A DNA stretch of 20,533 nucleotides from a virus: IMG/VR virus record IMGVR_UViG_3300020207_001855, positions 1-20,533 of that record. One strand, given 5' to 3'. The position numbers were made by a program, and so were the translations under genes. The notes beneath the pieces are model-generated. The model was not told where the DNA came from. It saw nothing but the letters and a program-made list of their open reading frames with translations, and made no database searches. Shown here piece after piece: positions 1,133 to 20,533 of this stretch (its first letter is position 1; the number at the start of each line of letters is the position of its first letter).

Positions 1133-2235
1133 TATAAAATTCCTGTAATTGATTCTATAACTGTATTTATTTCGTCCTCAGTAAGCCATGGATTGATAGG
1201 AACTGACATGATTGTACGTGCAGCGTGAAGCGCATTTGGTGTGTCGTCCATACGAATTTCCACTCCATCCCACACTTTATTTTCAGTCAATGCCATATCA
1301 TAATGAATCTTGGGATTCCACTTTTTAGATTGTTTAATGCCCTGCATCACAAAGTGTCTTGTTTCCGTATCTTCAAAACGCACCACATACTTGTGATAGT
1401 TGTGTTGCAGTGTACTACGAGGTTTTTGTGCTTGGGTAATTAAGGGCAAGTCTTTAAATGCAGAATCATATTTCTTTGCAATCTCTTGTCGTTTGGATTG
1501 CCATACTGTAAGATTTTTAAGTCTTAGATTAATAACCTCTGCGTTAGGTACATATAGTTTTGAATTCATAGATCTTTGTACTACAAACTCTTCTCCGATC
1601 TTACCATGTCGACGCATAGATTGTACTTTTTCTGCCATGTCTTTATCGTTGGTCATGAACATACCACCACCAGCGATACCAGATACGACTTTATTTGAAT
1701 TGAAACTATAAACACTGCAGTCACCAATGGTTCCTGCTTTGCGTCCGTCTAGTGAAGAACCAAGAGATTGCGCTGCATCCTCTATGAAAAGAATGTCGTG
1801 TTCTTTACACCATTCTTCAATCTCTCTGGTGTCTGACATAGAACCGAAAAGGTGAGTGTAGATCAACGCCCTTGTGTGTTTTGACACCATACGTTTAATA
1901 CTGTCAAAAGACATATGATATGTGTCTAGGTCAATATCGCAGAACACAGGCGTTGCGCCCGCACGTGTGATACATGTCGCAGAAGAAATCCAAGAGAAGT
2001 TTGTAACCAGAACTTCGTCACCATATCCAATATCATTCGCTACCAATGCGAAATACAACGCATCTGTTGCGTTCGCCACACCTACTGCATAGTACCTACC
2101 AGTAAACACTTCGATGTTCTTTTCCAAGAAATCGACTTTACCGTCATAGTCTTTTTTCATCGTCTTTTCAAAAAGGGTGTGATATGATCCCTCGTTGATT
2201 TCATATTCACGGTCCCATGCATCGTATGGTATCAC
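1132..2235 (-). CDS. DegT/DnrJ/EryC1/StrS family PLP aminotransferase
   Basis: A 367-residue, full-length member of the DegT/StrS sugar aminotransferase family. Visible motifs are the N-terminal GVANATDAL stretch, IEDAAQSLGS with the PLP-ring Asp at residue 153, and SFNSNKVVSG followed by a glycine run, in which Lys182 should form the Schiff base with PLP. These enzymes usually transfer an amino group from glutamate to a keto-sugar nucleotide. The start is GTG at 2235: an AAGGAG ribosome-binding site lies seven bases upstream, and a promoter (2268-2296) lies just ahead, so this gene opens its own transcription unit within the block. The stop overlaps the start of the next radical-SAM gene. 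Family assignment is firm; the exact sugar is not known. Confidence 0.92.
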   Translation of the reverse strand: MIPYDAWDREYEINEGSYHTLFEKTMKKDYDGKVDFLEKNIEVFTGRYYAVGVANATDALYFALVANDIGYGDEVLVTNFSWISSATCITRAGATPVFCDIDLDTYHMSFDSIKRMVSKHTRALIYTHLFGSMSDTREIEEWCKEHDILFIEDAAQSLGSSLDGRKAGTIGDCSVYSFNSNKVVSGIAGGGMFMTNDKDMAEKVQSMRRHGKIGEEFVVQRSMNSKLYVPNAEVINLRLKNLTVWQSKRQEIAKKYDSAFKDLPLITQAQKPRSTLQHNYHKYVVRFEDTETRHFVMQGIKQSKKWNPKIHYDMALTENKVWDGVEIRMDDTPNALHAARTIMSVPINPWLTEDEINTVIESITGIL

Positions 2236-2267
2236 TTTTTCACTCCTTCATACAATTCTATTTTTGT

Positions 2268-2296
2268 ACTATATCATATCGTGCGTTAATTGTCAA
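2268..2296 (-). promoter_or_regulatory. sigma70-type promoter for the DegT / radical SAM pair
   Basis: On the minus strand, TTGACA (2296-2291) and TATAGT (2273-2268) are separated by exactly 17 bases, in the 65-base gap between the PP-loop/radical-SAM gene and the DegT gene. Expected start is about 2261, leaving a leader of roughly 25 bases with the AAGGAG site. The match is 11 of 12 to the host vegetative consensus. Confidence 0.8.
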
Positions 2297-2300
2297 CAAA

Positions 2301-4610
2301 TTATATCAAATTGTCGTGTTCTTTTTCTAATTCTTCAACTTGTTTGCCCCATGACGTAAATAGTTCTTTTCTTTCATCTGTCATAGGTCTGTTCTCATAG
2401 AACTTCTCTAACTCTGGGAAAACATCAAACAAAGACATTTCCCATCTAGTGCCTTCATAATATTTATCTTGAAGCAATAGGTAATCAAAAATGTCCTGAA
2501 GATCAACGTCTGGTTCTGGCGGTCTAGACAACGCTGCTTGAATATCAGGCCATTCTTCATACTTTGGAATCAATTCATCTTTAAGTTCTTGTGGAAGGTT
2601 ATTAGTTCTTAGATGTGGTGGGTTCTCTAACATCGCCCAATTAAGTTGGTCAATCACAGGATGATCTTTGCACCAATCAACCACTTCATAGAAACGCATA
2701 ACACTAAGGAAAGACACCAGACCATTAAAGTCAACAACTGCGTTGTCAAACTGACCACAGAGTTCAACGTTCTTTACAACTTTATCCCAATCAGTTCTTC
2801 GACGCATGTATTCAATTACAGGACCAATACCATCAACGGATGCAACCACTGCAACGTGATCGAAGTAAGGAATATAGGTTAGTAGGTTATGTTTACCAGC
2901 TTTCGTCTCTGTTAAGTTTGTTTGATATTTCAAAGAGATTTTTGGCGCATGACCCGAATCAATCAACGCATCCAACATCTCATATTGTTTTTTCATAATC
3001 AAAGGTTCACCACCAATGATTTTAATACTCTTGATATATGGCGCAAGTTGAATGATCTGTTCAACAGTACCCTCTGTTTTATCTTTCATGACGTGTTGAA
3101 TGAGTCTACCCTGCGGGTTCGAATGTCTTCCATGCACATAAGAAGGCCACACTTTATCCGTAACAACACCCTTTTCCAAACTCTTCATTCGTGTAGTTGA
3201 GTTGATGTAGTCACACATATAACAATCAAGGTTACATTCTGATCCGTAGATTTTCAACTGAACTTCAAAGATCCTTTCACTTGGACCTCGTAAATTTTGA
3301 TCCATGTAGCGAGAGTTCTTAATTCTGAATTCACCAGTTTTTCTATATCTCTCAACCTTAGCAGCAATCTTATTCCAGAATGGCGGATCGTTCGTATGAA
3401 TTTTTAAACAGTTTGTTCTTCTTGATCTTCCGTATCTTTCCTCATCGGTATAACACCTCTGACAAATTCTTTTTACGTTTTTCAAATCAGATCCAACCGT
3501 GGTCATTTCACGACGAATACTATTCATGTATTCGCTGTTCTCCATCCAATCTACAAGACCTACTTCTTCAACAGATACGCCGCTTGAGGCGCCAAAACAA
3601 CATGCTTGGTACATACCGTCTAGTTCTGCATAAATCTGTGTAAAGGGAATGGTGCAGAAATATATGTCTTTTGCTTTTGCAAGTTGAACAATAGAATTAT
3701 CTTGGGCTGCCACCATTTCGCCCTTCTCATCCATGTTTCTCCACCACGCAGAAGTACTAATGTTGCCTGGCGTATTCTTATCGCCTGGACCGCCCTTGAT
3801 CAAATGTGGCGGCAGTTCTTTCCACACAATTGGAAGATCTCCAACTGGCCAATCCCATGCCCATGCTTTCTCTTCACACCAGAAACACTGTTTACACTCT
3901 TTAGTGAAGTTTGCAGTCAACACAGGCGAAGTTCCAACACAGGATCTTGTAATTGGAAATAGATCGTGCATCAAATTGTTTTCGATATAAACGCCTGCAA
4001 CGAACTTCTTATCAACATTACAGTATGGTTGATAGATACTGAAAGGACCCCATTTACCACTCACTCTCCACTCTTCAATAGGATCGTGTTCTTGATCTCT
4101 ACGTCTTTCTGCTTTGTGATAGAAATCCCATTTCATCATTTCATCGCTAGGAGGATTCCTAGTCATCGCATCAATTCTGATTGCATCTGGATAAAGTTCT
4201 AATGCACGTTCCATCATCATCCAAGATATTCTATCAACTTGAATAATTTTAGAAACCTGTCTTCTTCTCATAGTCTTAAAGGTTTCGTTTTCTGCCATAA
4301 TGGCTTCAACTTCTTCATGAGTAATAAAGGTTTCATCTTTGTCGTTGAAGTCGTAAGTTTCAATAGGGGGGATGTTGTTTTCGGGAAACTTCTTTTGCAT
4401 CCATTCAACGATTTCTTTTGCAGCATCCGCATCTTTTGGTGCATTTTGATCTCGACAAGTGTAAGGAACCAATTGCACTTGAGGAAAATGTTTTGAAATC
4501 AAATAAAGCAAACTTGCAGAATCGCACCCGCCCGATATTGATATAGGACAAAGTTCAGGAATTTCATTTGGAAACAAATCAATTGTTTGATCGCCATGAG
4601 TAATTTTCAT
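2301..4610 (-). CDS. fusion: QueC-like PP-loop ATPase domain + twitch/SPASM-type radical SAM domain
   Basis: A 769-residue two-part protein. Residues about 20-250 carry a PP-loop ATP pyrophosphatase motif, SGGCDS at 26-31, and a four-cysteine set (Cys224, then CKQCFWC at 239-245) placed like the zinc site of QueC-type enzymes, though with a longer first spacing. From about residue 272 (KGGPGD) to the end it is homologous to the neighbouring 472-aa radical-SAM protein: an N-terminal SPASM-like cysteine region (319, 337, 338, 383, 386), then CNLDCYMC at 459-466 and GGEP at 533-536. Known chemistry: PP-loop domains adenylate a carboxylate or amide, and radical-SAM domains do radical chemistry. 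Substrates are not known, and it is not a recognisable QueE. ATG at 4610 has a GAGG site about ten bases upstream. Confidence 0.88.
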   Translation of the reverse strand: MKITHGDQTIDLFPNEIPELCPISISGGCDSASLLYLISKHFPQVQLVPYTCRDQNAPKDADAAKEIVEWMQKKFPENNIPPIETYDFNDKDETFITHEEVEAIMAENETFKTMRRRQVSKIIQVDRISWMMMERALELYPDAIRIDAMTRNPPSDEMMKWDFYHKAERRRDQEHDPIEEWRVSGKWGPFSIYQPYCNVDKKFVAGVYIENNLMHDLFPITRSCVGTSPVLTANFTKECKQCFWCEEKAWAWDWPVGDLPIVWKELPPHLIKGGPGDKNTPGNISTSAWWRNMDEKGEMVAAQDNSIVQLAKAKDIYFCTIPFTQIYAELDGMYQACCFGASSGVSVEEVGLVDWMENSEYMNSIRREMTTVGSDLKNVKRICQRCYTDEERYGRSRRTNCLKIHTNDPPFWNKIAAKVERYRKTGEFRIKNSRYMDQNLRGPSERIFEVQLKIYGSECNLDCYMCDYINSTTRMKSLEKGVVTDKVWPSYVHGRHSNPQGRLIQHVMKDKTEGTVEQIIQLAPYIKSIKIIGGEPLIMKKQYEMLDALIDSGHAPKISLKYQTNLTETKAGKHNLLTYIPYFDHVAVVASVDGIGPVIEYMRRRTDWDKVVKNVELCGQFDNAVVDFNGLVSFLSVMRFYEVVDWCKDHPVIDQLNWAMLENPPHLRTNNLPQELKDELIPKYEEWPDIQAALSRPPEPDVDLQDIFDYLLLQDKYYEGTRWEMSLFDVFPELEKFYENRPMTDERKELFTSWGKQVEELEKEHDNLI

Positions 4611-4623
4611 TTTTTATTATACC

Positions 4624-5208
4624 TCAGTCATTTATTCGTGCAAGATCTGTGACAAAATCGATATTCTCAACAACCCCTGCTTCTTTTGCCTTGCGCCAGA
4701 ACTCCGAAAACGCCACGTTGTTTCTTTCCATTTGAGTGACGCCTTCTGCTTCATATTCAGTACACATGTCAAGAAGTACTTTTACTTGATGTCCTTCTCT
4801 AGCCCATGCAAGTGCAGAGTACGGTGTCGCATCTAAAATACATCCTTTGGTGTTTGTACCACCAAAGATTACGTTTTTAGCAATTGTTTTTACATCCCAC
4901 AATAACTTTTCTATTTCAAGAATACTGTCGAACTTTACTGGATCAATATTAACCCATTTATGAATACCTGCTTCTTCAACGACCTTTCGAAACTCATTCA
5001 TCTTGTGGTCAAAGTTTCTATGATGATCGGACAAGATCACCATTCTCTTTTTACTTTCAAAAACCACCTTTCTTAGTGTACTCCACCGCAATGCTTCAGA
5101 ATACTCATCAGTCATAGTTGGTTTCCCTTCCATGTGAATAAGCATTAGTACATTTTTTGGGGTAGGTTTAAATTTGTTGTTTGCAGGATTTGCATTTTTC
5201 TTTGCCAT
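4624..5208 (-). CDS. isochorismatase-fold (cysteine hydrolase-like) protein
   Basis: A 194-residue protein whose C-terminal half matches the isochorismatase/nicotinamidase pattern: a strand, then GGTNTKGCILDATPYSALA with the expected nucleophile Cys123, a helix, and a second strand VKVLLDMC. Residues 20-26 (VLMLIHM) align with the usual VIDMQ strand, but the catalytic Asp is a His (His25). Lys92 in PVKFDSI is a candidate for the catalytic Lys. The N-terminal 18 residues are a Lys/Asn-rich tail. Family members hydrolyse amides or vinyl ethers; with the Asp replaced, activity may be altered or lost. It lies between two paralogous radical-SAM genes, 13 bases from one and 2 from the other, so it is very probably part of the pathway. 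Fold call moderate, function uncertain. Confidence 0.68.
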   Translation of the reverse strand: MAKKNANPANNKFKPTPKNVLMLIHMEGKPTMTDEYSEALRWSTLRKVVFESKKRMVILSDHHRNFDHKMNEFRKVVEEAGIHKWVNIDPVKFDSILEIEKLLWDVKTIAKNVIFGGTNTKGCILDATPYSALAWAREGHQVKVLLDMCTEYEAEGVTQMERNNVAFSEFWRKAKEAGVVENIDFVTDLARIND

Positions 5209-5210
5209 AT

Positions 5211-6629
5211 TTATATCAACCCTTGTTCATGAAGTTTATCATGCAAATCCTTTTGCAGATAATACTGTTTCAATTCTGGATATACATCAAAAAGATTCCA
5301 GTCCCATTTTGTGCCTTTATAAAATTTGTCCATCATTAACAAATAGTTTAACGTATCTTGATAGTCTATACCATAATTACTTTCCTTTAAAACATTTTGA
5401 ATATCAGGAAACTTTTCATACTTGGGTATCAATTCCTGTTTTAACTCGTAAGGCAAAATGTTTGCTTGAAGTTTTTCTGGGTTTCTAATATTAGACCAAT
5501 TAACTTGTTCAATCCAATCTTCGTTTTCTTCACACCACTCAACCAATTTATAAAACCTCAACACACTGAGGAAACTTATTGTGCCATTAATGTTTACTTG
5601 AACGTTTGGAAAATCTTTTACACGTTTTATATTCTCTATAATCGTATCCCAATCAGACTTTCGTCTAATATAGTTATTATATCTACCATAACCATCAAGA
5701 GAAACTGTAAACTCAAACATTTCGAACTTAGGGATGTAGTCAAGAAGGTTGTGTCCCTGCAAAGACAGAGAACTCATATTAGTCTGATATTTTACAAAAA
5801 TTTCTTTTGAATGCCCAGTCTCAATTATTCTATCAAACAATTCATAGAACATTTTCATCATAAGCGGTTCACCACCAATTAACTTTAGATTGCGGATATA
5901 CGGCGCAAGTTCTACAATCTGATCAATAAACTTATATTGATTTTGTCTTTTTGGTGATTGTGATGGTTCGATAGAACGTCCAACAAAAACATTTTGTGTT
6001 TCTAACGACTCGCTCGCCATAGTTTTTTCTCTCGTAGTAGAATCATAAGGCATACACATATAACAATCTAAATTACAAACATTACCAAATGCTTTAATTT
6101 GCATTTCAAAAATTCTATTTGTAATTCTACCTTTACCAGTTTCTTTAAAGATACGAACTGCATCTCTAATGCCTGGCCAAATACCGACATCGTTTGTTTG
6201 TATTTTTAGTGAAGCTTGTCGTCTTGAACGACCATAAAGTGCTTCTTGTTTTATACAGTTTCTACACACATCTTTGCAGACAGTCAAATCAGAATTTGGT
6301 GTTGTCATTTCTTGACGCATTTTGTTCAGTTTTTCATCATGAACAAAATAGTCACTAATAGTTTTATCTCTAATGTTTACCAAATCGTCGTGTTGATCAT
6401 ATGCCCAAGAACACGGAAAGAGATTGCCTCTTGTATCTGTGTACAACAATTGAAATGGTGCACTACAAAACCAGATATCTTGATTTTTAATTTGTTCTTC
6501 CAGAATATCCACGTGCTGAAACCAAGAACTAGTATCCACTAGTCCACCACCTAAGTAGTTATCGCCTGGACCACCTTTATAGATGTCAGACATATTAGTT
6601 TGAGTACTGAATTTCTGTTCGTATTTCAT
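5211..6629 (-). CDS. twitch/SPASM-type radical SAM protein
   Basis: A 472-residue protein co-linear with the C-terminal two thirds of the 769-aa fusion: both start this part with KGGPGD (here 18-23), have a SPASM-like cysteine region first (Cys55, 73, 118, 122, 125), then YGRSRRQASLKIQTNDV, the radical-SAM motif CNLDCYMC (185-192) and GGEP (252-255), and end with a shared region near LFDVYPEL. The two are clearly paralogues from a local duplication; this one lacks the PP-loop half. I start at ATG 6629, because AGAGA lies at good spacing; a TTG two codons upstream is also open, but would leave almost no spacing from that site. It follows the next radical-SAM gene by two bases. Reaction unknown. 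Confidence 0.9.
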   Translation of the reverse strand: MKYEQKFSTQTNMSDIYKGGPGDNYLGGGLVDTSSWFQHVDILEEQIKNQDIWFCSAPFQLLYTDTRGNLFPCSWAYDQHDDLVNIRDKTISDYFVHDEKLNKMRQEMTTPNSDLTVCKDVCRNCIKQEALYGRSRRQASLKIQTNDVGIWPGIRDAVRIFKETGKGRITNRIFEMQIKAFGNVCNLDCYMCMPYDSTTREKTMASESLETQNVFVGRSIEPSQSPKRQNQYKFIDQIVELAPYIRNLKLIGGEPLMMKMFYELFDRIIETGHSKEIFVKYQTNMSSLSLQGHNLLDYIPKFEMFEFTVSLDGYGRYNNYIRRKSDWDTIIENIKRVKDFPNVQVNINGTISFLSVLRFYKLVEWCEENEDWIEQVNWSNIRNPEKLQANILPYELKQELIPKYEKFPDIQNVLKESNYGIDYQDTLNYLLMMDKFYKGTKWDWNLFDVYPELKQYYLQKDLHDKLHEQGLI

Positions 6630-6631
6630 AT

Positions 6632-7462
6632 TCAATCTCTTTTATTGGGGTCCCAATCTGGTCTTTTCCAAGGCGCATTTTCTTCAATCATTTGAAGTTT
6701 ACTCTTTGGGGGTTCCTGCATTTTCAACCAACGTCTTCTTGGAAGTTTATGCCACTTATCCAACGCTTCAGTTCTATGAGCCCAATATTCTTTTTTGACT
6801 CTAAGTTGTCTAAACTTAGATGCGGGGGCTTCCAGTTTGAATTTAACATTATCTCTTAGTAAAGGGTTATCTGGTCTGAAACCTCTATTTGTGTTTACTA
6901 ACAATAATGCAAAGTCTTCTTTCTTAGCAATTTCAAGTGCTTCTTCAATTTCATGTTCGTTATACCCAAAGATAATATACTGCCAAACAATGCAGTGTCC
7001 CTTATCTCTACCTTCTTGCATACGTCTCCACACTTCTTTGAAGTTAGAACCAACACGATACCACTCACTTTTTTCGTCAATACCATCAACACCAAAGTAC
7101 CAAGCGTTTTCTCCAACACCATAACTGTATGCTTCTTCCCACCACTCGTCACTTTTACCACTACCAACAGTCGCAATCCGCACAGCTTTCTGTTGTCCAT
7201 CACACATTCTTAGTAGACTTAAAAAGTCTTTGTGATAGATTGGATCTGAGATCTGGCCACAGAATGTAATACTGTAATCATAATAGTCCAGAATTTTCTG
7301 AAATTGTTCTGGTTCCAAGTCAAAAGATCTACGGATCTGTTCTTGACTTGTGCTCTTTTGTCTAATACATTGCGGGCACTTAAAAATGCATCTGTGAGAA
7401 GTGTCTATGTTTGGACGACTTCGTTTTTGTTCTTGCACATATAAATCAGTAACTCGATTCAT
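6632..7462 (-). CDS. radical SAM core protein without a SPASM domain
   Basis: A 276-residue protein with the Fe-S motif CIFKCPQC at residues 25-32. The strand that normally reads GGEP is here TFCGQISDP (66-74), a variant seen in more distant radical-SAM proteins. Other core strands are visible (AVRIATVGSG, WYFGVDGI, WQYIIFGYNEHEIEEAL). The C-terminus is basic and Trp-rich and has no cysteine cluster. Its ATG lies inside the end of the upstream gene, with a 17-base overlap and a GGTGGAG ribosome-binding site, so the two are translationally coupled. Because the upstream protein ends in a SPASM-like domain, the pair may act as a split version of the SPASM-then-core order found in the two larger radical-SAM proteins. 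Substrate unknown. Confidence 0.87.
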   Translation of the reverse strand: MNRVTDLYVQEQKRSRPNIDTSHRCIFKCPQCIRQKSTSQEQIRRSFDLEPEQFQKILDYYDYSITFCGQISDPIYHKDFLSLLRMCDGQQKAVRIATVGSGKSDEWWEEAYSYGVGENAWYFGVDGIDEKSEWYRVGSNFKEVWRRMQEGRDKGHCIVWQYIIFGYNEHEIEEALEIAKKEDFALLLVNTNRGFRPDNPLLRDNVKFKLEAPASKFRQLRVKKEYWAHRTEALDKWHKLPRRRWLKMQEPPKSKLQMIEENAPWKRPDWDPNKRD

Positions 7463-8660
7463 GAAACTGCCACTCCACCTCTGTTTTTTCTTCTACTTTT
7501 AATGCATCTGTGTCTATGTTTACACCACACTTTTTCTTACACATATAAGATGCATTCTCTGGTTGCCAAAGCAATGTTTGAAAAAAGTTTTCCCACTGTT
7601 CAGACGTAAAGATGTCTTCCAGTTTTTCATTGTTAGCAAGTGCAAGTTCCTCGTCTTTTAATCCACAAGCCGTGATGTATCTGTGAACGGGCGGATCATC
7701 TAACCAACAACAAGGCAACATGTATCCATCTGAAGTATACGCTGCGCCTTTACTGATGTCCATGTGCGGTTTATTTTTTGAAAACAAAAATGATAAGCAT
7801 CTTGGTTGTATTTTCATAAGACTCTTCATCGCTTCTATAATAGGTTCAATTTTTGGGGTTTCGATTTCCCTTTCCCAATATACAGATCCACCATCGACAA
7901 CGTCTAGTTCTCTTTCATAGATCATATCTTTTCCATAATACTTACACTCCTGAATAATTCTAGGAGCTGGGTCCACATGATCTTTTGTGTAGACGTATGT
8001 ATTAAACAACCCTAAAAAATTATCTACTGGCACAAATACATTATTAAATGTAGGATTGACCCAATCCGCATCGTATGTAATAATGCCATGATCTTGATAT
8101 TTCGGTAGGTACTTAGATGCAACCTCATAATATCTTTCATTTGTTCCTAAGAACAAATATTCAAATTGCACGTCTTCTTGGAAATCTTTGTAAATGTCAA
8201 AGTTAATTCTTTTTTCGAATTGCAAACCTTGACCATTTGGATATACATCATGATCACAAAGATCAGCAATTTCTTTTGGTTTAAAGAATTCTATCGCAAT
8301 AGGATATTGCGTTGGATGGTTTTCTGAGTATACACTAATAAGTTTTCTAGAAAACAAATCTTTTAAAGTATCTTGTTGTTCTGGACGATAGTCTTTCCAG
8401 TTTCTCCAAGCTTGAGTAATCATGCTTCTACCCATAACCATTGTTATGAGAAGATTTTCATACCCAGTATCAAAAACTATGTTTTCACAATGAATATATT
8501 TACTTTCTATAACTTTTATATAATCAGAAGGTTTATATTTTCTATGGCACACAACAACTACACGTGCTTTAATACCCTCTTTATTCAAAAGGTCACAGTA
8601 TTCATAACTGTATAGAAATAGTCCATCGACTGGTTTGCTTGTCACAACAATATTAATCAT
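7446..8660 (-). CDS. GT-B-like domain with C-terminal stand-alone SPASM-like domain
   Basis: A 404-residue protein. Residues 1 to about 260 look like a degenerate GT-B glycosyltransferase: alternating strands and helices, with YTKDHVDPAPRIIQECKYYG (224-243) recalling the donor-site pRiieA...G segment. Residues about 285-382 look like a SPASM domain: AAYTSDGYMLPCCWLDDPP with Cys317-Cys318, a helix IFTSEQWENFF, and CKKKC at 374-378, but there is no radical-SAM core in this protein. Such a domain would bind an auxiliary Fe-S cluster. It overlaps the following radical-SAM core gene by 17 bases in a different frame. ATG at 8660 lies nine bases after the previous gene and has no strong ribosome-binding site. 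The glycosyltransferase part is a tentative fold call; the SPASM part is clearer. Confidence 0.68.
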   Translation of the reverse strand: MINIVVTSKPVDGLFLYSYEYCDLLNKEGIKARVVVVCHRKYKPSDYIKVIESKYIHCENIVFDTGYENLLITMVMGRSMITQAWRNWKDYRPEQQDTLKDLFSRKLISVYSENHPTQYPIAIEFFKPKEIADLCDHDVYPNGQGLQFEKRINFDIYKDFQEDVQFEYLFLGTNERYYEVASKYLPKYQDHGIITYDADWVNPTFNNVFVPVDNFLGLFNTYVYTKDHVDPAPRIIQECKYYGKDMIYERELDVVDGGSVYWEREIETPKIEPIIEAMKSLMKIQPRCLSFLFSKNKPHMDISKGAAYTSDGYMLPCCWLDDPPVHRYITACGLKDEELALANNEKLEDIFTSEQWENFFQTLLWQPENASYMCKKKCGVNIDTDALKVEEKTEVEWQFHESSY

Positions 8661-8668
8661 ATTTTAAT

Positions 8669-9247
8669 TCACGCTCTCTTTAATAGATATTTTGAAAACC
8701 AAGCTTGTTCACGTTTTAGTTCTTTGTAATGTTGATTAAACAAGTATACAGGCGCATCAGTTTCGTGAGGCACCGTCGAATAAGACACGTAATTATCTTC
8801 CTTCATGTACATATTAAATGTAGTATTTTCATAGATGTATTGATCTATGCCTTTTCTATACCACATTAAACACCAGTCCTCTTCTTCATGAAACGTTTCC
8901 GTAACATGTGATGCATCTCCTTTCCAAGAGATAATAGAAGAATTTAGGGGAGTATGGAATGGTTCACGCCAATGTGCGTGACATACTGTAAATTCATCTC
9001 TCAAAAAGTGGTTGCAATCTCCTTTAATCACAACGTCCAAATCAAAGTAAATATTCTGTCCGTCTCTATATTTATCAAACATCTGAAACTTATTGAACAC
9101 ACCATATACATCGTCATATATGTCATCGGTAATGCAGACAAACTCATCATATTCGAGGCCAGAGTAATTGTCTATCATGTGTTTCAGATTATCTTCGTAC
9201 CACTTTTCATACTTCGTTCCAGTACGAACACATATCACTCTCATCAT
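8669..9247 (-). CDS. GT-A fold glycosyltransferase-like protein (GT8-like)
   Basis: A 192-residue protein beginning MMRVICVRTGTKYEKWYEDN. It has a Rossmann-like first strand, a mid-protein strand ending in the metal-binding DxD motif IYFDLDVVIKGD (Asp69-Leu-Asp71), and then AHWREPFHTPLNSSI, which aligns with WWRDTLHPDYTLNGG in the next protein. Family knowledge: DxD GT-A enzymes transfer a sugar from a nucleotide donor using a divalent metal. It is shorter than usual for GT8 (about 250-300 residues). The start overlaps the upstream gene stop as ATGA (9244-9247); a second ATG one codon later is also possible. It is a sister of the following gene and lies next to the sugar-type biosynthetic block. 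Confidence 0.75.
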   Translation of the reverse strand: MMRVICVRTGTKYEKWYEDNLKHMIDNYSGLEYDEFVCITDDIYDDVYGVFNKFQMFDKYRDGQNIYFDLDVVIKGDCNHFLRDEFTVCHAHWREPFHTPLNSSIISWKGDASHVTETFHEEEDWCLMWYRKGIDQYIYENTTFNMYMKEDNYVSYSTVPHETDAPVYLFNQHYKELKREQAWFSKYLLKRA

Positions 9248-9945
9248 TTAGTATATTGATCCCAATATTTCCATCTGTGCGGCAGGTTGTTTTCGTGAGT
9301 GAAATGAACAAGTTTGATATCTTCATGGAAGTCTCCAAACCAACAGTATTCGTTACCAGTAGCATGTGTATACTTTGCATTGAAATGTTTTTGCCACTGA
9401 GTATAAATTTGAGGTGAAAGTTCGTCATCACTCAACCATCTACACTGCCATGAATTAGGCATATAGATTAGTTTTAATTTTTCTTTAACTGCGTCCTCTA
9501 CGAAATACTGTTCTCCATTAACTGGACCACTAGTGATACCAGCTTGGATATACAAACTCTGCCAATGATCTACATCAGCCATAAACTTTTCGTAAATGTA
9601 ATTGCAGTCTTTTGGATAGTATTTGTAGAATCCACCATTCAGAGTATAATCAGGATGAAGTGTGTCTCTCCACCACGCTCTCATGGCTAAAAACTCACCA
9701 CGTTCTACTGGGTAATCAAAACACTCTTTATAATCGTTAATCAGGAGCAAATCTATGTCAATTACGCACACTGGTTCTTCGTCTGGGAGATTCATCACAG
9801 ACATTTTGTTCCATTGAAGTTTTACGGATTTGTCATATGGTTCACGAATCCAAATCAGATCGTAATCGTCGCCCAATTTAGATTCTAGGTAGTCTTCGTA
9901 TTCTTGGCCGTATTTCTCGCCAATCCTCACAACAAAAATTTTCAT
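9244..9945 (-). CDS. GT-A fold glycosyltransferase-like protein, paralogue of its neighbour
   Basis: A 233-residue protein. First strand MKIFVVRIGEKYGQEYEDYL is homologous to that of the downstream neighbour. The DxD motif is VCVIDIDLLLIND (Asp63-Ile-Asp65). Later motifs are WWRDTLHPDYTLNGGFYKY, SGPVNGEQYFVEDAV (acceptor-loop-like GEQ) and LVHFTH near the end, a His often used for metal binding in GT8-like enzymes. It is more complete than its paralogue. ATG at 9945 lies five bases after the acidic protein's stop, with no obvious ribosome-binding site, so translation is probably coupled. It is the first of the leftward biosynthetic genes after the virion-type genes. Donor and acceptor sugars are not known. 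Confidence 0.78.
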   Translation of the reverse strand: MKIFVVRIGEKYGQEYEDYLESKLGDDYDLIWIREPYDKSVKLQWNKMSVMNLPDEEPVCVIDIDLLLINDYKECFDYPVERGEFLAMRAWWRDTLHPDYTLNGGFYKYYPKDCNYIYEKFMADVDHWQSLYIQAGITSGPVNGEQYFVEDAVKEKLKLIYMPNSWQCRWLSDDELSPQIYTQWQKHFNAKYTHATGNEYCWFGDFHEDIKLVHFTHENNLPHRWKYWDQYTK

Positions 9946-9950
9946 AATGA

Positions 9951-10490
9951 TTATTCAGACGTTGTTTCAACCTCTGCCTCTGCTTCTTGAGCTTCACTTG
10001 CATCTTCTTCAACTTCAGACGTGTTGATAGACATAACAATATCAATAACTTCTTTGTATGTCTTTGCTTGTCTGATAGCTCTTTTTACAGACGTATCTGT
10101 ACACTCGACGACTGCTTGGTTGTCAAATGCTTCAATTTTAAATTTAAACAACTCTTCCGCCCCGATTTCGTCTTCGGGTCTATTAAGGAAGTTAAAGACT
10201 TTAGTAAATCCAAGTTCTGTTGTATCAATGATACCTTCACGTTCTGCAATCAACATACATTCTTTTTCAAATGCTTTACGTGCACGACGACGATATTCTC
10301 TTGTTGATTCTTCAATCTTATCTTCGTCCCAACCCTCTGCGACAAGGTCACGATAGTTTGAATCCTTTTCATCAACGTTTACGAAGAATCTACGGATCTT
10401 TTCATCCTTGCCTCTCCACTCTACATTGATAATAGTTTTTTCTTGATCAAAGTAAAAAACATCAATGATGTTATCACTAAATTCTGCCAT
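9951..10490 (-). CDS. acidic phage protein of unknown function
   Basis: A 179-residue protein starting MAEFSDNIIDVFYFDQEKTI. The N-terminal half looks like a beta-rich fold followed by a charged helix (EESTREYRRRARKAFEKECM); the middle holds another mixed region; and the last 20-25 residues are a Glu/Ala/Ser tail, likely disordered. There is no signal peptide or membrane segment. ATG at 10490 has a good AGGAG site about nine bases upstream. It directly follows the two paralogous virion-type genes, so a role in tail or fibre assembly, or as an assembly chaperone, is possible but is inference only. I do not recognise a named family, though the style resembles short conserved proteins in T4-like marine phages. 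Confidence 0.7.
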   Translation of the reverse strand: MAEFSDNIIDVFYFDQEKTIINVEWRGKDEKIRRFFVNVDEKDSNYRDLVAEGWDEDKIEESTREYRRRARKAFEKECMLIAEREGIIDTTELGFTKVFNFLNRPEDEIGAEELFKFKIEAFDNQAVVECTDTSVKRAIRQAKTYKEVIDIVMSINTSEVEEDASEAQEAEAEVETTSE

Positions 10491-12754: not shown

Positions 12755-12793
12755 AAAAGTAAAATGTCACTTTTCTGTTGCTAGGTAAGTGAC
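12755..12793 (-). terminator. rho-independent terminator of the tmRNA gene
   Basis: On the minus strand, GTCACTT (12793-12787) pairs perfectly with AAGTGAC (12772-12766) across a 14-base loop and is followed by ATTTTACTTTT. It lies just after the tmRNA coding piece and before the late promoter motif. The loop is large and the upstream GGTGACC of the tmRNA could compete for the same strand. Confidence 0.6.
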
Positions 12794-12806
12794 CAACCCC
12801 CTGTGG

Positions 12807-12851
12807 TTACGCTGCTAGAGCGAACTCAGATGGTGCAAAGTTATCGTTTGC
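12807..12851 (-). other. tmRNA tag-peptide reading frame
   Basis: Fourteen codons and a TAA stop encode ANDNFAPSEFALAA, from resume codon GCA at 12851. The ANDN start is typical of alphaproteobacterial tags, and the hydrophobic ALAA end is the usual signal for ClpXP-type proteases. At 14 residues it is slightly longer than the common alphaproteobacterial tags, by a SEF-type insert. Confidence 0.92.
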
Positions 12852-12921
12852 AGTTAGTTTGTTTGACCGAATAACGTAGGTCACCACGGTAATCTCCACT
12901 CAACTAGCCCGCCTGTCGATC

Positions 12922-13065
12922 CTATTTCAGCCCCTTCATAAACACACGAATAAGTAATGGTCCAAACCTATAACTTTTATAAGGATTTCCATTATTTAAT
13001 CTAAATTCACCCCATTGAAAAGGTACTCCTCTAAACCAACTAATCCAGTGCCAATCCCAATTCAT
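12922..13065 (-). CDS. 47-aa ORF inside the tmRNA intervening segment
   Basis: A 48-codon frame starts with ATG at 13065 and has GAGG five bases upstream. It encodes a Trp/Phe/Arg-rich protein starting MNWDWHWISWFRGVPF and ending FGPLLIRVFMKGLK. It spans nearly the whole 149-base intervening segment and stops with TAG at 12924-12922, which is part of the conserved tmRNA 5' sequence GGGGCTGAAATAG. It is too short for the usual ORF cut-offs. A three-codon frame (ATG AGG ATA TAA, 13076-13065) overlaps its start as TAATG. Ribosome-binding site, uninterrupted frame and non-random, strongly aromatic composition support a real protein; no family is recognised. Alternatively the open frame is chance in a spacer. 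Confidence 0.6.
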   Translation of the reverse strand: MNWDWHWISWFRGVPFQWGEFRLNNGNPYKSYRFGPLLIRVFMKGLK

Positions 13066-13152
13066 TATATCCTCATGTGTTTATGGTGGAGCTGTGGGGT
13101 ACTGCCCCCCAGTCCAGTTCGTGTTCGCTTTGTTTCATCGATTACAATTTAC

Positions 13153-13181
13153 ATTATATGACATTTTTACTAATATGTCAA
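13153..13181 (-). promoter_or_regulatory. perfect-consensus sigma70 promoter for the tmRNA
   Basis: Minus strand: TTGACA (13181-13176), 17-base spacer, TATAAT (13158-13153), a 12 of 12 match. The expected start near 13146 is a few bases before the acceptor piece. This implies strong transcription by host RNA polymerase. Confidence 0.9.
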
Positions 13182-13194
13182 TACCCAATAGACC

Positions 13195-15034: not shown

Positions 15035-15056
15035 CCCCCTTTTTCATAAATATGAT
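15028..15056 (+). promoter_or_regulatory. sigma70-type promoter of the nitroreductase-to-symporter operon, overlapping a CATAAATA motif
   Basis: Plus strand: TTGTCA (15028-15033), 17-base spacer, TATGAT (15051-15056), start near 15063. The first gene's GAGGA site lies at 15076-15080. CATAAATA at 15045-15052 could serve as a late promoter as well. No other promoter was seen before the symporter. Confidence 0.65.
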
Positions 15057-15086: not shown

Positions 15087-15815
15087 ATGGTAGACAAAAC
15101 AGAACTACTCACGGCAATACAGAATACTTATCCTTGTCAGAGAAACTGGGATCACACCCAAACAATTCCGCAAGAAGACATCGATTTGATTTTGAATGCT
15201 GCGAGATTGGCCCCAACGAAACAAGGTGAAACACACTATAAAGTATACTGGACAACTGATCGTGCGAAGATTCAAGCAATCTACGAGAGAACTCCTTACT
15301 TTGCAGTATACGATCCTGCGAAAGACTATACTGGTATAGAAAACGAAGCAGGGGATTTTCCCCCAGAGTACAATGTTACAAACCCACAAGTAAACGCTAA
15401 CATGATTATTGCGTTGTGTGATGACTGGAACCCTGAGACAGCACGTGCAAGAACTCATATGGTTATCGATAACGAAACCATGACAGAAGACGTGTATACT
15501 CATATTGTTAAACACAGACAACTGGATCTTGGCGCAGGCATTGCAATGGGTAATGTTCTTCTAACTGCAAACCTACTTGGTTACAGAACAGGTTTGTGTT
15601 CTGCATTCAACGAAGATGAAGTTTTGGGCGTAGCGAATACGTTTTGTAAATGTATTGTAGGTATTGGGTTCCCAGATCCAAATCTTGATAGAAGAGTACA
15701 CCCAGATGTTTTGAATAGTGAAATTTTTGAAGAAAATATGAGAACTGGAGCAAATACCGAAAACTACATTTTCCCATCATTTGCGAAGGAAGATCCTGTT
15801 AACGAGATACCATAA
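15087..15815 (+). CDS. nitroreductase family FMN-dependent oxidoreductase
   Basis: A 242-residue protein of the nitroreductase fold. Visible marks are the N-terminal YPCQRNWDHTQTIP region (the usual RxR phosphate contact of FMN is changed), the helix ILNAARLAPTKQGETHYKVY (35-54; compare A-x-APSxxNxQPW), the long helix LDLGAGIAMGNVLLTANLLG (146-165) with GYRTGLCSAF after it, and a late strand CIVGIGFPDP. Family members use FMN and NAD(P)H to reduce nitro groups, quinones or enones, or to dehydrogenate cyclic intermediates; which applies cannot be read here. Length is normal. ATG has GAGGA about eight bases upstream. It is the first gene of the plus-strand operon; its stop abuts the next ATG. 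Confidence 0.87.
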   Translation: MVDKTELLTAIQNTYPCQRNWDHTQTIPQEDIDLILNAARLAPTKQGETHYKVYWTTDRAKIQAIYERTPYFAVYDPAKDYTGIENEAGDFPPEYNVTNPQVNANMIIALCDDWNPETARARTHMVIDNETMTEDVYTHIVKHRQLDLGAGIAMGNVLLTANLLGYRTGLCSAFNEDEVLGVANTFCKCIVGIGFPDPNLDRRVHPDVLNSEIFEENMRTGANTENYIFPSFAKEDPVNEIP

Positions 15816-16244
15816 ATGAATTTTTATATTACTGGTACACGCAGGGGTTTAGGAAAAGCCCTTGCGTGGAAACATGGCAATGTCGGTTCACTTGAACACT
15901 GTGATGTTTTTATAAACTGCAAACACGATGGTTTTGATCAAGTTAAACTTCTCTATGAAGCTGCAGAACTTGGAAAACGAATAATTAATATTGGTTCAAA
16001 CTCACCAGACGAAACCAAAAGAGTTCCTCACCTTTATCAAATAGAAAAGTTTGCTTTAGACAAAGCAAACGACCAACTATTTTATCAAGGTGTTAACACA
16101 ACAATAGTAAGATTTGGTTGGTTTGATAGTGAAAGAGTTGCACACGTCGAAGCAGAAAAGATGAGTATAGAATACTGTTGTGATGTCATCGATTTTGTTT
16201 TAGAACAACCATATAGAGTGAAGGAAATTACAGTATGCGTATAG
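15816..16244 (+). CDS. very short SDR-like NAD(P)-binding protein
   Basis: A 142-residue protein with core short-chain dehydrogenase marks: TGTRRGLGKAL at 6-16 (TGxxxGxG cofactor loop), the strand RIINIGSNS at 55-63 with candidate catalytic Ser61 or Ser63, and YQIEK at 74-78 (YxxxK). SDRs are normally about 250 residues; here the stretch between cofactor loop and Ser is only some 45 residues, so about 100 residues are missing. Either it is a minimal active form or a cofactor-binding remnant or regulator. The frame is intact, it starts directly after the nitroreductase stop, and its last ten bases overlap the next gene, so it is not obviously decayed. Confidence 0.78.
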   Translation: MNFYITGTRRGLGKALAWKHGNVGSLEHCDVFINCKHDGFDQVKLLYEAAELGKRIINIGSNSPDETKRVPHLYQIEKFALDKANDQLFYQGVNTTIVRFGWFDSERVAHVEAEKMSIEYCCDVIDFVLEQPYRVKEITVCV

Positions 16245-16702
16245 ATGTTCCAAGAATTATTGAAGAGATTGCACCACTCATGCATAAGATGGATGAGGAT
16301 GGAACAAACCAACTCATGCTTCAAGGCGTGAAAGGAATCGATGATCCTTATTATGGGTGTCATCACTTTAAAGATTTAAAACACATCGAATTTGAATTCA
16401 ATGTGCCTTTGCATGATAATATAGAATATACTAATAGTATAATTAAAGATCTAAAAATTCATCGTACACGTCTAATGAGACTAAGACCTCATACGTGTTA
16501 TTCTTACCACAAAGACGCTTCTCGAAGAATTCACATCCCTCTCGTAACTAGTGTAAACTGTTTCATAATTGTAGATGATATCCTAAACAGGTATCCTGCA
16601 GATGGTAGTTCATACCTTATAAATACTACTAAGATGCACACAGCAGTGAACGCATCTAATAATGATAGGTGGCATATAGTAGGTTGTGTGAGTAAACGAT
16701 GA
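16235..16702 (+). CDS. aspartyl/asparaginyl beta-hydroxylase-like Fe(II)/2-oxoglutarate dioxygenase
   Basis: A 155-residue, single-domain dioxygenase. The signature RLRPHTCYSYHKDASRRIHI (83-101 region) gives iron ligands His92 and Asp94, then RIHIPL; the third ligand is His135 in MHTAVN, and Arg145 or Arg98 could bind 2-oxoglutarate. This matches the cupin-type Asp_Arg_Hydrox family, which hydroxylates amino-acid side chains or free amino acids and also occurs in natural-product pathways. AAGGAA lies eight bases before ATG 16235. It overlaps the SDR gene by 10 bases and the methyltransferase gene by 4. Substrate unknown; a biosynthetic role is inferred from neighbours. Confidence 0.85.
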   Translation: MRIDVPRIIEEIAPLMHKMDEDGTNQLMLQGVKGIDDPYYGCHHFKDLKHIEFEFNVPLHDNIEYTNSIIKDLKIHRTRLMRLRPHTCYSYHKDASRRIHIPLVTSVNCFIIVDDILNRYPADGSSYLINTTKMHTAVNASNNDRWHIVGCVSKR

Positions 16703-17220
16703 ATGAACAAATTGTGAAGAAATATTTTGGTAATAGTTGGAAACCTGATTATGATAAGTTCAAATACAGCGGTTGGGAACTACTAAATCAAATTGATGAG
16801 AATGAAACTGTCCTCGACATTGGTTGCGGATATAACCTTTTCAAACCCCATTTCCCCTTTTTATATGGAATAGATCCTGCAATTGCAGACGCAGATGAAG
16901 TCGTGAGTATCGAAGACTTCAACTGCACTGGAAATCAATGGGACGTGGTTTTGTGTCTAGGAAGTTTAAACTTTGGTCCAAGAGAGACGGTTGAGCCACA
17001 AGTTGAGAAGGCAGCAAGTCTTACTAAAAAAGGTGGACGGATTTATTGGAGACAAAATCCAGGCGTAGGTGATCATCCTTGGAAGGGTGTTGATGAAGTT
17101 CAATTCTTTCCGTGGACGTTTGAAGACAACTACGAATGGGCGGAAAAGTTTGGATGTAAAGTCCATGATATCAAATGGGACACAGGTAATAGAATATACG
17201 CTGAATGGCATAAATTATGA
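16699..17220 (+). CDS. class I SAM-dependent methyltransferase
   Basis: A 173-residue Rossmann-type methyltransferase. Motif I is VLDIGCGYN (38-46); the next acidic strand is FLYGIDPA; then QWDVVLCLGSLNFG gives motif IV, and LTKKGGRIYWRQNPG the following strand. It is short, lacking an obvious extra substrate-binding domain, so it may act on a small molecule. Start ATG overlaps the dioxygenase stop (ATGA type), as does its own end with the next gene. No strong ribosome-binding site is seen, so translation is probably coupled. The methyl acceptor (O, N or C) is unknown. Confidence 0.85.
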   Translation: MNEQIVKKYFGNSWKPDYDKFKYSGWELLNQIDENETVLDIGCGYNLFKPHFPFLYGIDPAIADADEVVSIEDFNCTGNQWDVVLCLGSLNFGPRETVEPQVEKAASLTKKGGRIYWRQNPGVGDHPWKGVDEVQFFPWTFEDNYEWAEKFGCKVHDIKWDTGNRIYAEWHKL

Positions 17221-18101
17221 CAACATTGATTGTGGGTGGGTGTAGTTATACAGATCCAAACTATGTAATGTACAAAAAACAAAACATAGAAACTTGGCCT
17301 TCCCTTCTTGCAAAACACTACGGATATAATTTGGTAAACACTGCAACGAGTGGTTACGGTAATAGACATATCGTCAATAGTGTCATAGATGCAATTTTAG
17401 ATTATGAAATGAAAGATGATATTATCGTATGCGTTGCATGGACAGAACCGTATAGACTTTCTTTCATCGACGACACTGATTTAGATCATCCGATTTTTCT
17501 ATTCAGTGACGAAGAATATGAACGCAGAAAAACTTTCTCTGACGGACTGTCTGGATACTTTGATTTTGTCGAAGAGGGTAGACAACAACTTATCAAGTAC
17601 ATCAAGAAAAGACAGAAAAAAGTTGGTTCTAAAGACGACATCAAAAAAATTATTTCTTTGAATAGCAAGATAGTATCTCAATCTTTCAGAAACATTTGGT
17701 ATCTACAAGACTTTTGTCGTAATAGAAATATTGAAATGTTTCATATGCATACATTTGACCCATATCATTTCGATAAAAAGTTAGGTGTTGAAATGTATAT
17801 TGGTGAAGATAGCGTTGCAGAAAAAATAACTTCTGAATATGCAACGAGAGAAATAGAACAGTCAGTTTACTTCCGAAAAGTTAAAGATGACGTTGGGTAC
17901 ATGGGGCCTAAATATAATTTATACAATGATATATCGGAACAAAATCTTTTTATTGATGATAATGGTAAACCAAACTACCATCCAAATCAAAAAGGACATG
18001 AATGGATCTCTGATACATTTAGAGAGTTTATAGACCTTGGTGATCGTCTAGAAAATCACACGGAAAACTCTTACAGAGACATTTTATATTTATGGGAGTG
18101 A
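17217..18101 (+). CDS. SGNH/GDSL hydrolase-like protein
   Basis: A 294-residue protein. It opens with a strand and GGCSYTDP (block I, Ser10 as nucleophile), then NTATSGYGNRHIVN (block II Gly46 and Asn49), VCVAWTEPYR in place of block III, a long charged helical insert (about 95-165), a strand with MFHMHTFD, and near the end NYHPNQKGHEW (His255), corresponding to DxxHPNxxGH, but with Pro instead of Asp three residues before the His. SGNH enzymes are esterases, or add or remove acyl groups from sugars. The missing Asp suggests a two-residue or altered catalytic set. It overlaps the methyltransferase gene by four bases and lies three bases before the ANL gene. Confidence 0.75.
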   Translation: MTTLIVGGCSYTDPNYVMYKKQNIETWPSLLAKHYGYNLVNTATSGYGNRHIVNSVIDAILDYEMKDDIIVCVAWTEPYRLSFIDDTDLDHPIFLFSDEEYERRKTFSDGLSGYFDFVEEGRQQLIKYIKKRQKKVGSKDDIKKIISLNSKIVSQSFRNIWYLQDFCRNRNIEMFHMHTFDPYHFDKKLGVEMYIGEDSVAEKITSEYATREIEQSVYFRKVKDDVGYMGPKYNLYNDISEQNLFIDDNGKPNYHPNQKGHEWISDTFREFIDLGDRLENHTENSYRDILYLWE

Positions 18102-18104
18102 CAT

Positions 18105-19616
18105 ATGAATCCTTTTTATACACTAATACCAGACAATAAAATCGCACTTAGCGATATTAATGGTTCAATCACCTACAGAGACTTAATCGACCAAGCCATT
18201 CATAAGCGTGACTGGATGATGAGTTTGGGATATAAACGTGGTCACCGTATTGGCATCTCAGGAAAAAATGATATTAGAACATACATTTATTTTCTGGCAG
18301 GTCAGATGTTGAGTAGTGTTGTTGGACTTAGACCCAGAGATCAAAAAGAAAATGACTGGTCATATAAAATCCCTGCAGCCAACCTTAACGTAACTATTGA
18401 CTTGGGTAACTCCGAAGATGAGGTTGTTGTAGAACACAGACACTTTGACAAAGTCACAGAGTGCGAAAAAGAGTATGCAGTATATTTTAGTAGTGGAACC
18501 ACAAGTAACACTTGGGGCGTACCACAGTCAACTCCAATGGTTTGGGATGTAGACGATAATAACTGGGGTATGGGTATTGATATTGTAAATTACAACCGTA
18601 TGGTCATCAATCCATATTATCGTGAAAACAACACTATTAGACGTACAGATGATAACATCCAAATTCAACCTATGTGGTCATGGATTGGATGGGGACAAGA
18701 GTGTACCACTCTAAATTTAATCAAACATGGTCATACAGTTCTTGTCGGCGACATTTCCGAATGGGACGAACTTGTCGAAAAGTTCCAGCCAACATGGACT
18801 GTTATGTTCCCAATGATTGCGTTTAAGTTGATGGATCACAACAAGGGTGGCGGAAATCCAATCAAATGTGTTGAAATGTCTGGTTCACGAGTCACTGACA
18901 AACAAGTTCAACAGTTGAAACAGTTTTTTAATTGCGATTACTTTGTCAGTCATTATGGCACAAGTCAGAGCGGAAACTTTATGCACAATGCGGGAGATGG
19001 TAGTAACCTCCAAAACATTGGTAAACCATGTGAAGGATTCACACACGCATATGGTAAAGACTTTGTTCGTATTGGTAAAAAAGGAACGTTGGAAGTTAAA
19101 TGGCACGGCAGCCCTCCGCATTATTGTAACGACGATGGTTACTATGATACAAACGATGTTGTAGAGATGGGTTCTGATGGTAACTACATTTTCAAAGGAC
19201 GGGCGAATGAAATGTTGATGATCCGTGGTGGTAGTAAACTACTCTCTCCAACAATCGAAGACAGGATGTTAGAAAACTTAAACATAAAAGAAGCGTATGT
19301 TTTCCCTGTTCCAGAAAGTGAGACTAAAAATCCAACAGTTGAAATGTCTAGGGAAGAAATCGATGATGGGATTCTTTATCAAATCCCTGGCTTGTTGTAT
19401 TATGGTGATGTCACTATTGAAGATATTAAAAAACACATCGACGAAACCTTACCTGATTACCACAAACCTATCATAATTTACAGATTAAAAGATACTCTCT
19501 CATCATTCACTGACACAGGCCACTGGAAGGTGAGAAGATTAAGTATGCACGATACTTTGAAAGAAAACTACAAAGAATGGTGCGAAGAATATTTTATTGA
19601 TAATATGAAGGATTAA
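18105..19616 (+). CDS. ANL superfamily adenylating enzyme (acyl/aryl-AMP ligase)
   Basis: A 503-residue, full-length AMP-binding enzyme that should activate a carboxylate as acyl-AMP. Core motifs in order: YFSSGTTSNTWGVP (127-140; P-loop A3), VSHYGTSQSG (281-290; A5), GYYDTNDV (345-352; A7), FKGRANEMLMIRGGSKLLSP (363-382; A8) and C-terminal GHWKVRR with catalytic Lys475 (A10). The motif after SSGTT is unusual (SNT where T-G-x-P-K is typical). Whether the acyl group is passed to CoA, a carrier protein, an amine or a hydroxyl is not visible; no carrier-protein gene lies in the window. GGGAG is six bases before the ATG. Operon position with methyltransferase and dioxygenase suggests small-molecule assembly. 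Confidence 0.88.
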   Translation: MNPFYTLIPDNKIALSDINGSITYRDLIDQAIHKRDWMMSLGYKRGHRIGISGKNDIRTYIYFLAGQMLSSVVGLRPRDQKENDWSYKIPAANLNVTIDLGNSEDEVVVEHRHFDKVTECEKEYAVYFSSGTTSNTWGVPQSTPMVWDVDDNNWGMGIDIVNYNRMVINPYYRENNTIRRTDDNIQIQPMWSWIGWGQECTTLNLIKHGHTVLVGDISEWDELVEKFQPTWTVMFPMIAFKLMDHNKGGGNPIKCVEMSGSRVTDKQVQQLKQFFNCDYFVSHYGTSQSGNFMHNAGDGSNLQNIGKPCEGFTHAYGKDFVRIGKKGTLEVKWHGSPPHYCNDDGYYDTNDVVEMGSDGNYIFKGRANEMLMIRGGSKLLSPTIEDRMLENLNIKEAYVFPVPESETKNPTVEMSREEIDDGILYQIPGLLYYGDVTIEDIKKHIDETLPDYHKPIIIYRLKDTLSSFTDTGHWKVRRLSMHDTLKENYKEWCEEYFIDNMKD

Positions 19617-19619
19617 AAA

Positions 19620-20533
19620 ATGAGTGAACTATTTCCACTATTTGAACCATCGACAGGGTTCATTATTCTTTTGGTGTATGGGGCCTTCGCACTGTATATG
19701 ACACATCGTTATGCCAGGGGTTATAATGATTCAAAAACAAGTTTTCTTGTTGCACGTCGAGAACTGAATACTTTTCAAGGAAGTCTGAGTGTTGCAGCTG
19801 CATGGTTGTGGGCGCCAGGATTGTTTATTAGTACACAACAGGCGTATGTGAATGGTCTAGTCGGATTGTTCTGGTTCTGTTTAGGGAACTTCCTAACACT
19901 TATGGCGTTTGCATATTTTGCAAAACTAATTCGTAATAGAGAACCAAGCGGATTTACATTCAGTGGTTATTTGCGTGATAGACTAAGTCCAAGGGTTCAA
20001 TGGTTGTTCGTTACTGAGATGATCATCCTTGCCACTTGTGCATTTGCAATCAACCTTATTGCAGGATCCAGTACAGTATCAACGCTGACAGGTATTAACT
20101 ATACTCTTGCAACAGTACTGATGGCATTGATTGCTATTGCATATAGTTTCCGTAGTGGTCTAAAAGCAACAGTCGTAACAGAGATCATCAAGATCATTGT
20201 TGTATGGGCAGGCGTTCTTATTCTCGTGCCATGGGCGATCAGTTCAGCAGGTGGTTGGGATACCGTTGTCGCAGGACTAGGCGGCCGCACAGGCGAAGGT
20301 GCAGCGATCTGGGGTACACCATTTGCATGGGGGATCTTTACAGGGTTCGGTGCAGCTGCATTCCTTGGACACTTAGGTGGACCGTGGGGAGACAACAGTT
20401 TCTATCAACGTGCATTTAGTATCAAAGAGGGTTCGATCATTCCTAGTTACGTCATTGCAAGTTTTGTGTTCATTGTCGTACCAATTATGATGGGACTTCT
20501 TGGTTTCGTCGCTGCAGGCACAGGAATGGAGAT
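19620..20533 (+). CDS. sodium:solute symporter family (SSS) transporter, cut by window edge
   Basis: ATG at 19620 has AAGGA seven bases upstream and follows the ANL gene by three bases; the frame stays open to the right edge (304 codons). The protein starts MSELFPLFEPSTGF and shows at least seven hydrophobic segments. SSS features are ASSLSVAAAW-like SLSVAAAWLWAPG in the first repeat, YSFRSGLKATVVTEIIKI (the family GGLKAVxxTD region), and GDNSFYQRAFSIKEG (the family QxxxQRxxA region). Members use the sodium gradient to import sugars, amino acids, urea, organic acids or similar solutes; the substrate is unknown. Transporters are uncommon in phages, so this is likely an auxiliary metabolic gene feeding, or belonging to, the upstream pathway. 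Confidence 0.9.
   Translation, partial: MSELFPLFEPSTGFIILLVYGAFALYMTHRYARGYNDSKTSFLVARRELNTFQGSLSVAAAWLWAPGLFISTQQAYVNGLVGLFWFCLGNFLTLMAFAYFAKLIRNREPSGFTFSGYLRDRLSPRVQWLFVTEMIILATCAFAINLIAGSSTVSTLTGINYTLATVLMALIAIAYSFRSGLKATVVTEIIKIIVVWAGVLILVPWAISSAGGWDTVVAGLGGRTGEGAAIWGTPFAWGIFTGFGAAAFLGHLGGPWGDNSFYQRAFSIKEGSIIPSYVIASFVFIVVPIMMGLLGFVAAGTGME

Follow-up and report, generated by a model that had tools for sequence, protein, structure and literature searches.

The window analyzed here, a linear viral record of 20,533 bp that ends at position 20533 and probably represents part of a larger genome, contains an operon in which two layers of gene organization meet. The first is a conserved viral module that couples a methyltransferase (MT) gene to a transporter gene, a link that is well supported as genetics and is found in many phages without an adenylate-forming ligase (ANL). 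The second is a rarer cassette built around the ANL, which is present in six lineages. Seven genes on the same strand, separated by gaps of 0-3 bases or overlapping by 4-10, occupy positions 15087-20531 (Table 1); the ORF list and the sequence both agree with the tight coupling described in an earlier note on this DNA. The last gene, encoding an SSS transporter, runs open into the contig end, and the operon is therefore incomplete in the window. These genes are viral and linked, and as a set they form a mosaic.

Table 1. Positions of the operon genes, nearby elements and mini-ANL genes (window coordinates unless a locus label is given)
Feature	Position	Strand	Evidence or context
Permuted two-piece tmRNA, alphaproteobacterial type	12763-13185	-	RF01849 116 bits; RF04321 121 bits
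ATAAATA, T4-late-promoter-like	15046-15052	+	34 bp before NTR start codon
NTR, nitroreductase-fold flavoprotein, 242 aa	15087-15815	+	PF00881 1.2e-10
SDR, compact short-chain dehydrogenase-like, 142 aa	15816-16244	+	gap 0 after NTR; TGTRRGLG, S61/Y74/K78
AspH-type Fe(II)/2OG hydroxylase, 155 aa	16235-16702	+	overlap 10 with SDR; PF05118 (Asp_Arg_Hydrox) 8e-8
MT, class I SAM methyltransferase, 173 aa	16699-17220	+	overlap 4 with AspH; predicted fold
SGNH-like protein, 294 aa	17217-18101	+	overlap 4 with MT; Pfam weak, 0.055
ANL, adenylate-forming ligase, 503 aa	18105-19616	+	gap 3 after SGNH-like; PF00501 (AMP-binding) 3e-13
SSS/SSF transporter, N-terminal 304 aa, DUR3-like	19620-20531	+	gap 3 after ANL; PF00474 (SSF) 5e-15
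Mini-ANL genes	L242:1447-2157; L243:1435-2181; L244:1459-2169; L245:1474-2133; L069:7956-8630
Mini-ANL gene	L064:18161-18859	-

Evidence for the first layer comes from a search with MT alone, chosen to avoid the bias of SSS-based loci, which recovered relatives encoded by 524 viral stretches. Among the best 80 of these 524, a transporter gene part lies within 5 kb of MT in 68 (TctA in 42, TctC in 41 and SSS in 23), and many of the loci without one are shortened by contig ends. The association also holds from the transporter side: MT is present at 51 of the 70 viral loci of a TctA scan and recurs at 48 of 58 viral SSS loci, which have viral neighbours. A P-loop protein, C1, encoded beside SSS, recurs at 53 of the SSS loci and has no solid match among solved structures; relatives carry C1 and a 2OG gene after SSS. 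In 20 large viral records, MT is present in 18, mostly as a single copy, and the DUR3-like SSF (9 records) and TctA (8 records) are single-copy and never occur together. One of the two lies at most 3.4 kb from MT in 16 of 17 records against 1.4 expected, a contrast whose p-value is only indicative, since the records are related and were picked mostly via SSS, TctA or MT matches. The exception is G034, with a spacing of 38 kb, and both transporters are absent from the two records that lack MT. Another record (G049, 127 kb; locus L157) has MT with neither TctA nor SSF, and there two genes that resemble TctC-type binding proteins by eye (L157:1032-1940 and 6115-7089) flank MT.

In an annotated phage collection, tblastn returned no match for MT or ANL and a single one for SSS. 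The three best MT relatives in bacterial MAGs (L254-L256) were rejected as bacterial; their contigs carry mostly genes common to the phage loci and are probably binned phage.

The SSS protein combines the PF00474 domain with DUR3 as its nearest solved relative, as determined via a full-length homologue from L003 whose best match is to DUR3 urea-proton symporters (6.6e-16), followed by choline transporters. Identity to DUR3, itself of the SSS superfamily, is low, and the W-x-W-A region aligns. This relationship suggests small polar amines as the predicted substrate class. A gene for a glycine-betaine-type binding protein occurs near the cassette in L064, L066 and L067. SSS and TctA are equally frequent with and without ANL, and the transporter may thus have no part in the ANL cassette; MT likewise has no preference for ANL lineages.

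The identities proposed in the earlier note held at Pfam cut-offs for the nitroreductase, the 2OG oxygenase, the ANL and the SSS transporter. MT falls below the cut-off (1.9e-3) and is assigned by its predicted model (pLDDT 88.8), which has a class I methyltransferase fold with 3h2b as best Foldseek match (2.2e-9); the other matches are generic small-molecule and tRNA methyltransferases and do not narrow its substrate. The SDR and SGNH-like assignments, neither of them supported by Pfam, draw on motifs kept in relatives. The short SDR receives no Pfam call and only weak SDR matches from NCBIfam, and it carries the glycine-rich TGxxxGxG (as TGTRRGLG) and S-Y-K triad of its superfamily, with S61 and Y74xxxK78 invariant in four sequences at 30-73% identity. 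AspH has the H92-x-D94...H135 iron triad and R145 of 2OG oxygenases, invariant in four sequences. SGNH-like relatives contain G-x-S-Y-T and H-x-N-Q-x-G-H; Ser (GDSYT in L069) and His are retained, and no Asp stands in the usual D-x-x-H position. Active-site motifs are mostly intact across the operon.

Gene order is also preserved in part. A second viral contig (L002/L061, IMGVR_UViG_3300023109_001535) keeps NTR-SDR-AspH-MT-SGNH-ANL at 63-82% protein identity, and its order agrees with the window from a radical SAM block through a cell-wall hydrolase gene to NTR and on to ANL. L002 ends inside ANL, and the ANL-SSS junction is seen in the window only. In L066/L069, ANL, SGNH, MT, AspH and SDR are reshuffled, and TctA/TctC and ProX take the place of SSS. 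NTR has orthologues in L002 (68% identity) and L062 (59%) and is missing from most ANL lineages; in L062 it is followed by other enzymes and adjoins the same cell-wall hydrolase gene as in the window. A second, divergent nitroreductase (L088:6062-6694, minus strand; 33% identity to the window NTR) belongs to an extensive radical SAM cluster that also holds SDR-like and cytidylyltransferase-like genes, on the L064 contig.

Relatives of the ANL at 58-82% identity were found in L002, L064, L065, L066, L067, L068 and L069, all viral contigs, and merging near-identical loci gave the six lineages. Matches in L070-L073 cover only 23 aa and were discarded as chance. One pattern-based, non-exhaustive scan of bacterial genomes (genome_contigs) confirmed no relative. 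Among the loci compared, the cassette enzymes accompany ANL more often than chance would predict, and four genes are concentrated in the ANL lineages: SDR (3 of 6 with ANL versus 0 of 91 without), AspH (4 of 6 versus 2 of 91), SGNH (3 of 6 versus 1 of 91) and mini-ANL (4 of 6 versus 2 of 91), contrasts that are inflated by the 10-kb flanks of ANL loci against 5-6 kb for many others and that include related, non-independent phages.

By profile, the nearest solved relative of the ANL is coronafacate ligase Cfl (1.4e-13); the predicted structure (pLDDT 37) was left out of the analysis. The phage proteins share the A7, A8 and A10 motifs with Cfl and other ANL enzymes (A7 Asp351, A8 Arg366 and the A10 Lys; seven sequences, with L002 cut before A10). 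They differ in that the PKG Lys of the A3 P-loop is missing and Gln288 replaces the A5 Glu in 7 of 7 sequences; because both residues are missing, adenylation may be impaired. A further difference is that a mini-ANL of 208-248 aa is often encoded alongside. It begins at or shortly before A3, covers only about 165-377 of the AMP-binding model, and keeps the P-loop Lys, A5 Glu, A7 Asp and A8 Arg without the N-terminal and C-terminal parts. The two genes share several operons and also occur far apart within one genome, separated by 141 kb in G031 (204 kb) and by 97 kb in G034 (184 kb); G026, G031 and G034 encode divergent full-length ANLs. Neither the window nor L002 shows a mini-ANL, and each of these contigs stops at or near ANL.

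The mini-ANL is often accompanied by a small DUF6356-type membrane protein and a GNAT-like protein of about 180 aa (the latter read by eye), and often also by an HxxG protein of about 250 aa, a recurring gene group. In L065, a gene resembling the alpha subunit of ring-hydroxylating oxygenases (7727-8794; PF00848 4e-9) comes directly after the tmRNA and ahead of the mini-ANL and ANL genes.

The single promoter assumed earlier for the operon was not borne out, as sigma-70-like sites occur at chance level (23 versus 23.4 expected). ATAAATA-type, T4-late-like sites number 13 in the window against 6.4 expected, and the one before NTR is a plausible alternative promoter. A permuted tmRNA, preceded just upstream in the window by a 12/12 sigma-70 consensus (13181-13153), is found near five of the six ANL lineages: it is also present in L002 and immediately precedes the operon in L065, L066, L067 and L069, whereas a search of L064 and L088 did not recover it. 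Its tag reads ANDNFAPSEFALAA in the window, as translated, and ANDNFAPSELRLAA in L002. Because this tmRNA near the operons is of the permuted alphaproteobacterial type, it suggests a host in that group. A T4-type portal (PF07230) is encoded by 4 of 25 records, one of them G025, a contig with the ANL operon, and was not seen in the 20.5-kb window. The 91-kb contig of L069 unites the reshuffled cassette with such a portal (4.9e-168) and with other genes that appear T4-like by eye.

We tentatively read the operon as an auxiliary metabolic island predicted to import and remodel a small molecule, a reading we hold with somewhat less than even confidence; its carrier is probably a large T4-like marine phage with an alphaproteobacterial host. 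In this scheme, where a shared pathway, all substrates, all activities and the direction of transport are predicted, the phage DUR3-like transporter would enter the host inner membrane and import a small polar metabolite, perhaps urea or another small amine, to guess from the transporter family. TctA/TctC would fill the same slot beside MT in relatives. The linked MT would methylate either the imported metabolite or a compound derived from it. In the window phage and about five other lineages, the extra cassette would work on the same pool: AspH would hydroxylate, SDR and NTR would carry out redox steps, and the SGNH-like protein would de-esterify. The ANL would activate a carboxylate to an acyl-AMP and join it to an amine or thiol with no carrier protein; its nearest solved relative, coronafacate ligase, makes amides.

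A bolder version, which we consider unlikely, is that large marine phages have a dedicated system for remodelling metabolites, that in it one MT is wired to interchangeable, unrelated importers (DUR3-like SSS or TctA/TctC) and that some lineages add a two-part adenylation machine, in which the mini-ANL would keep exactly the ATP-site residues lost from the full-length ANL. The natural-product or acyl-tailoring pathway proposed in the earlier note survives in part: the genes are indeed viral and linked, and the idea of a single pathway finds no support in that form, the gene set being a mosaic. Neither a carrier protein nor a condensation or ketosynthase domain was present among the operon proteins scanned, on a contig that ends inside the operon, and no complete pathway is recognizable in this gene set.

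Auxiliary metabolic islands in T4-like cyanophages are variable and carry 2OG oxygenases along with other enzymes, features that they share with this operon. The cyanophage sets concern photosynthesis, phosphate and carbon, whereas in the present phages a single MT has secondary transporters as partners, and a viral ANL family occurs as well. Phage nutrient genes have been reviewed (PMC6359870). The closest report among the open papers searched is a SUP05 viral contig on which tctA, a gene of the tripartite tricarboxylate transporter, is listed beside a 2OG-Fe(II) oxygenase as putative auxiliary metabolic genes of unknown role (eLife 2014, PMC4164917). It resembles the MT-transporter phages in carrying this transporter gene; the likeness is a domain match only, and the available portions of that report describe no MT module, SSS swap or ANL cassette (PMC4164917). 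A search confined to openly accessible papers found no mention of the viral ANL family, its mini-ANL companion or the MT-transporter module, in agreement with the earlier impression that this is not a known phage module. If our reading is correct, many uncultured ocean phages control host import through a conserved methyltransferase-transporter unit, within which two unrelated transporters replace each other, and this unit makes it possible to test how lytic phages feed an infection in waters low in nutrients. The enzymes of the viral ANL family, the mini-ANL and the products of their partner genes have no described function in the sources searched.

The main and closest rival to the import-and-remodelling reading, possible though on balance rather unlikely, is that unrelated, functionally independent auxiliary genes, each of them useful, are stacked in a hypervariable-island slot and share a late promoter; only MT and its transporter would then form a true unit. 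Such stacking fits the strong differences in order and content among relatives, the independence of SSS and TctA from ANL, and the retention of NTR alone beside the hydrolase gene in L062. It is harder to reconcile with the strong enrichment of SDR, AspH, SGNH and mini-ANL in ANL lineages, or with ANL and mini-ANL co-occurring even at the long distances found in G031 and G034.

We regard it as improbable that the operon, with neighbouring genes, makes or modifies a glycan or lipid for surface or virion decoration, for instance as a barrier to superinfection. Glycans are among the possible targets of SGNH proteins, and the window also encodes a DegT aminotransferase, several radical SAM proteins and two products that look glycosyltransferase-like by eye with no Pfam match (8669-9945); the L062 slot likewise holds epimerase-like and glycosyltransferase-like genes, again by eye. 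However, the block of radical SAM genes runs on the opposite strand and has no counterpart next to the ANL operons of L065-L069, and MT has an inner-membrane importer as its conserved partner. The block itself (323-10490, minus strand), which comprises the radical SAM genes, the aminotransferase and the two possible glycosyltransferases, is conserved in L090/L061 and includes a 769-aa fusion of a QueC-like/PP-loop domain with a twitch-domain radical SAM protein (N_Twi_rSAM 1.4e-79). The L002 phage also has, in its accessory island, a gene that looks heme-oxygenase-like by eye (L090:6884-7420, minus strand).

Nucleotide or DNA hypermodification, with the transporter supplying a precursor, is very improbable: thymidylate-synthase-like genes and others for nucleotides precede the ANL operon in L064, L065 and L069 (by eye), but such genes are usual in T4-like genomes, the operon has no base-modifying transferase, and the fold matches of MT are generic.

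We give almost no credence to chimeric assembly or host DNA, since the G+C of 0.47 from 20001 against 0.35-0.39 in the rest of the operon is outweighed by the independent contig L002/L061, which keeps the radical SAM genes joined to the operon as far as ANL and rules out a chimera for the NTR-ANL stretch, by the viral neighbours of the 58 SSS loci, and by the ANL set on a portal-bearing contig. Neither a chimeric join nor relatives devoid of linkage, the two outcomes set against the operon in advance, was thus found. The raised G+C lies in part of the SSS gene (20001-20533), compared with about 0.38 elsewhere, and could reflect recent acquisition or membrane-protein composition.
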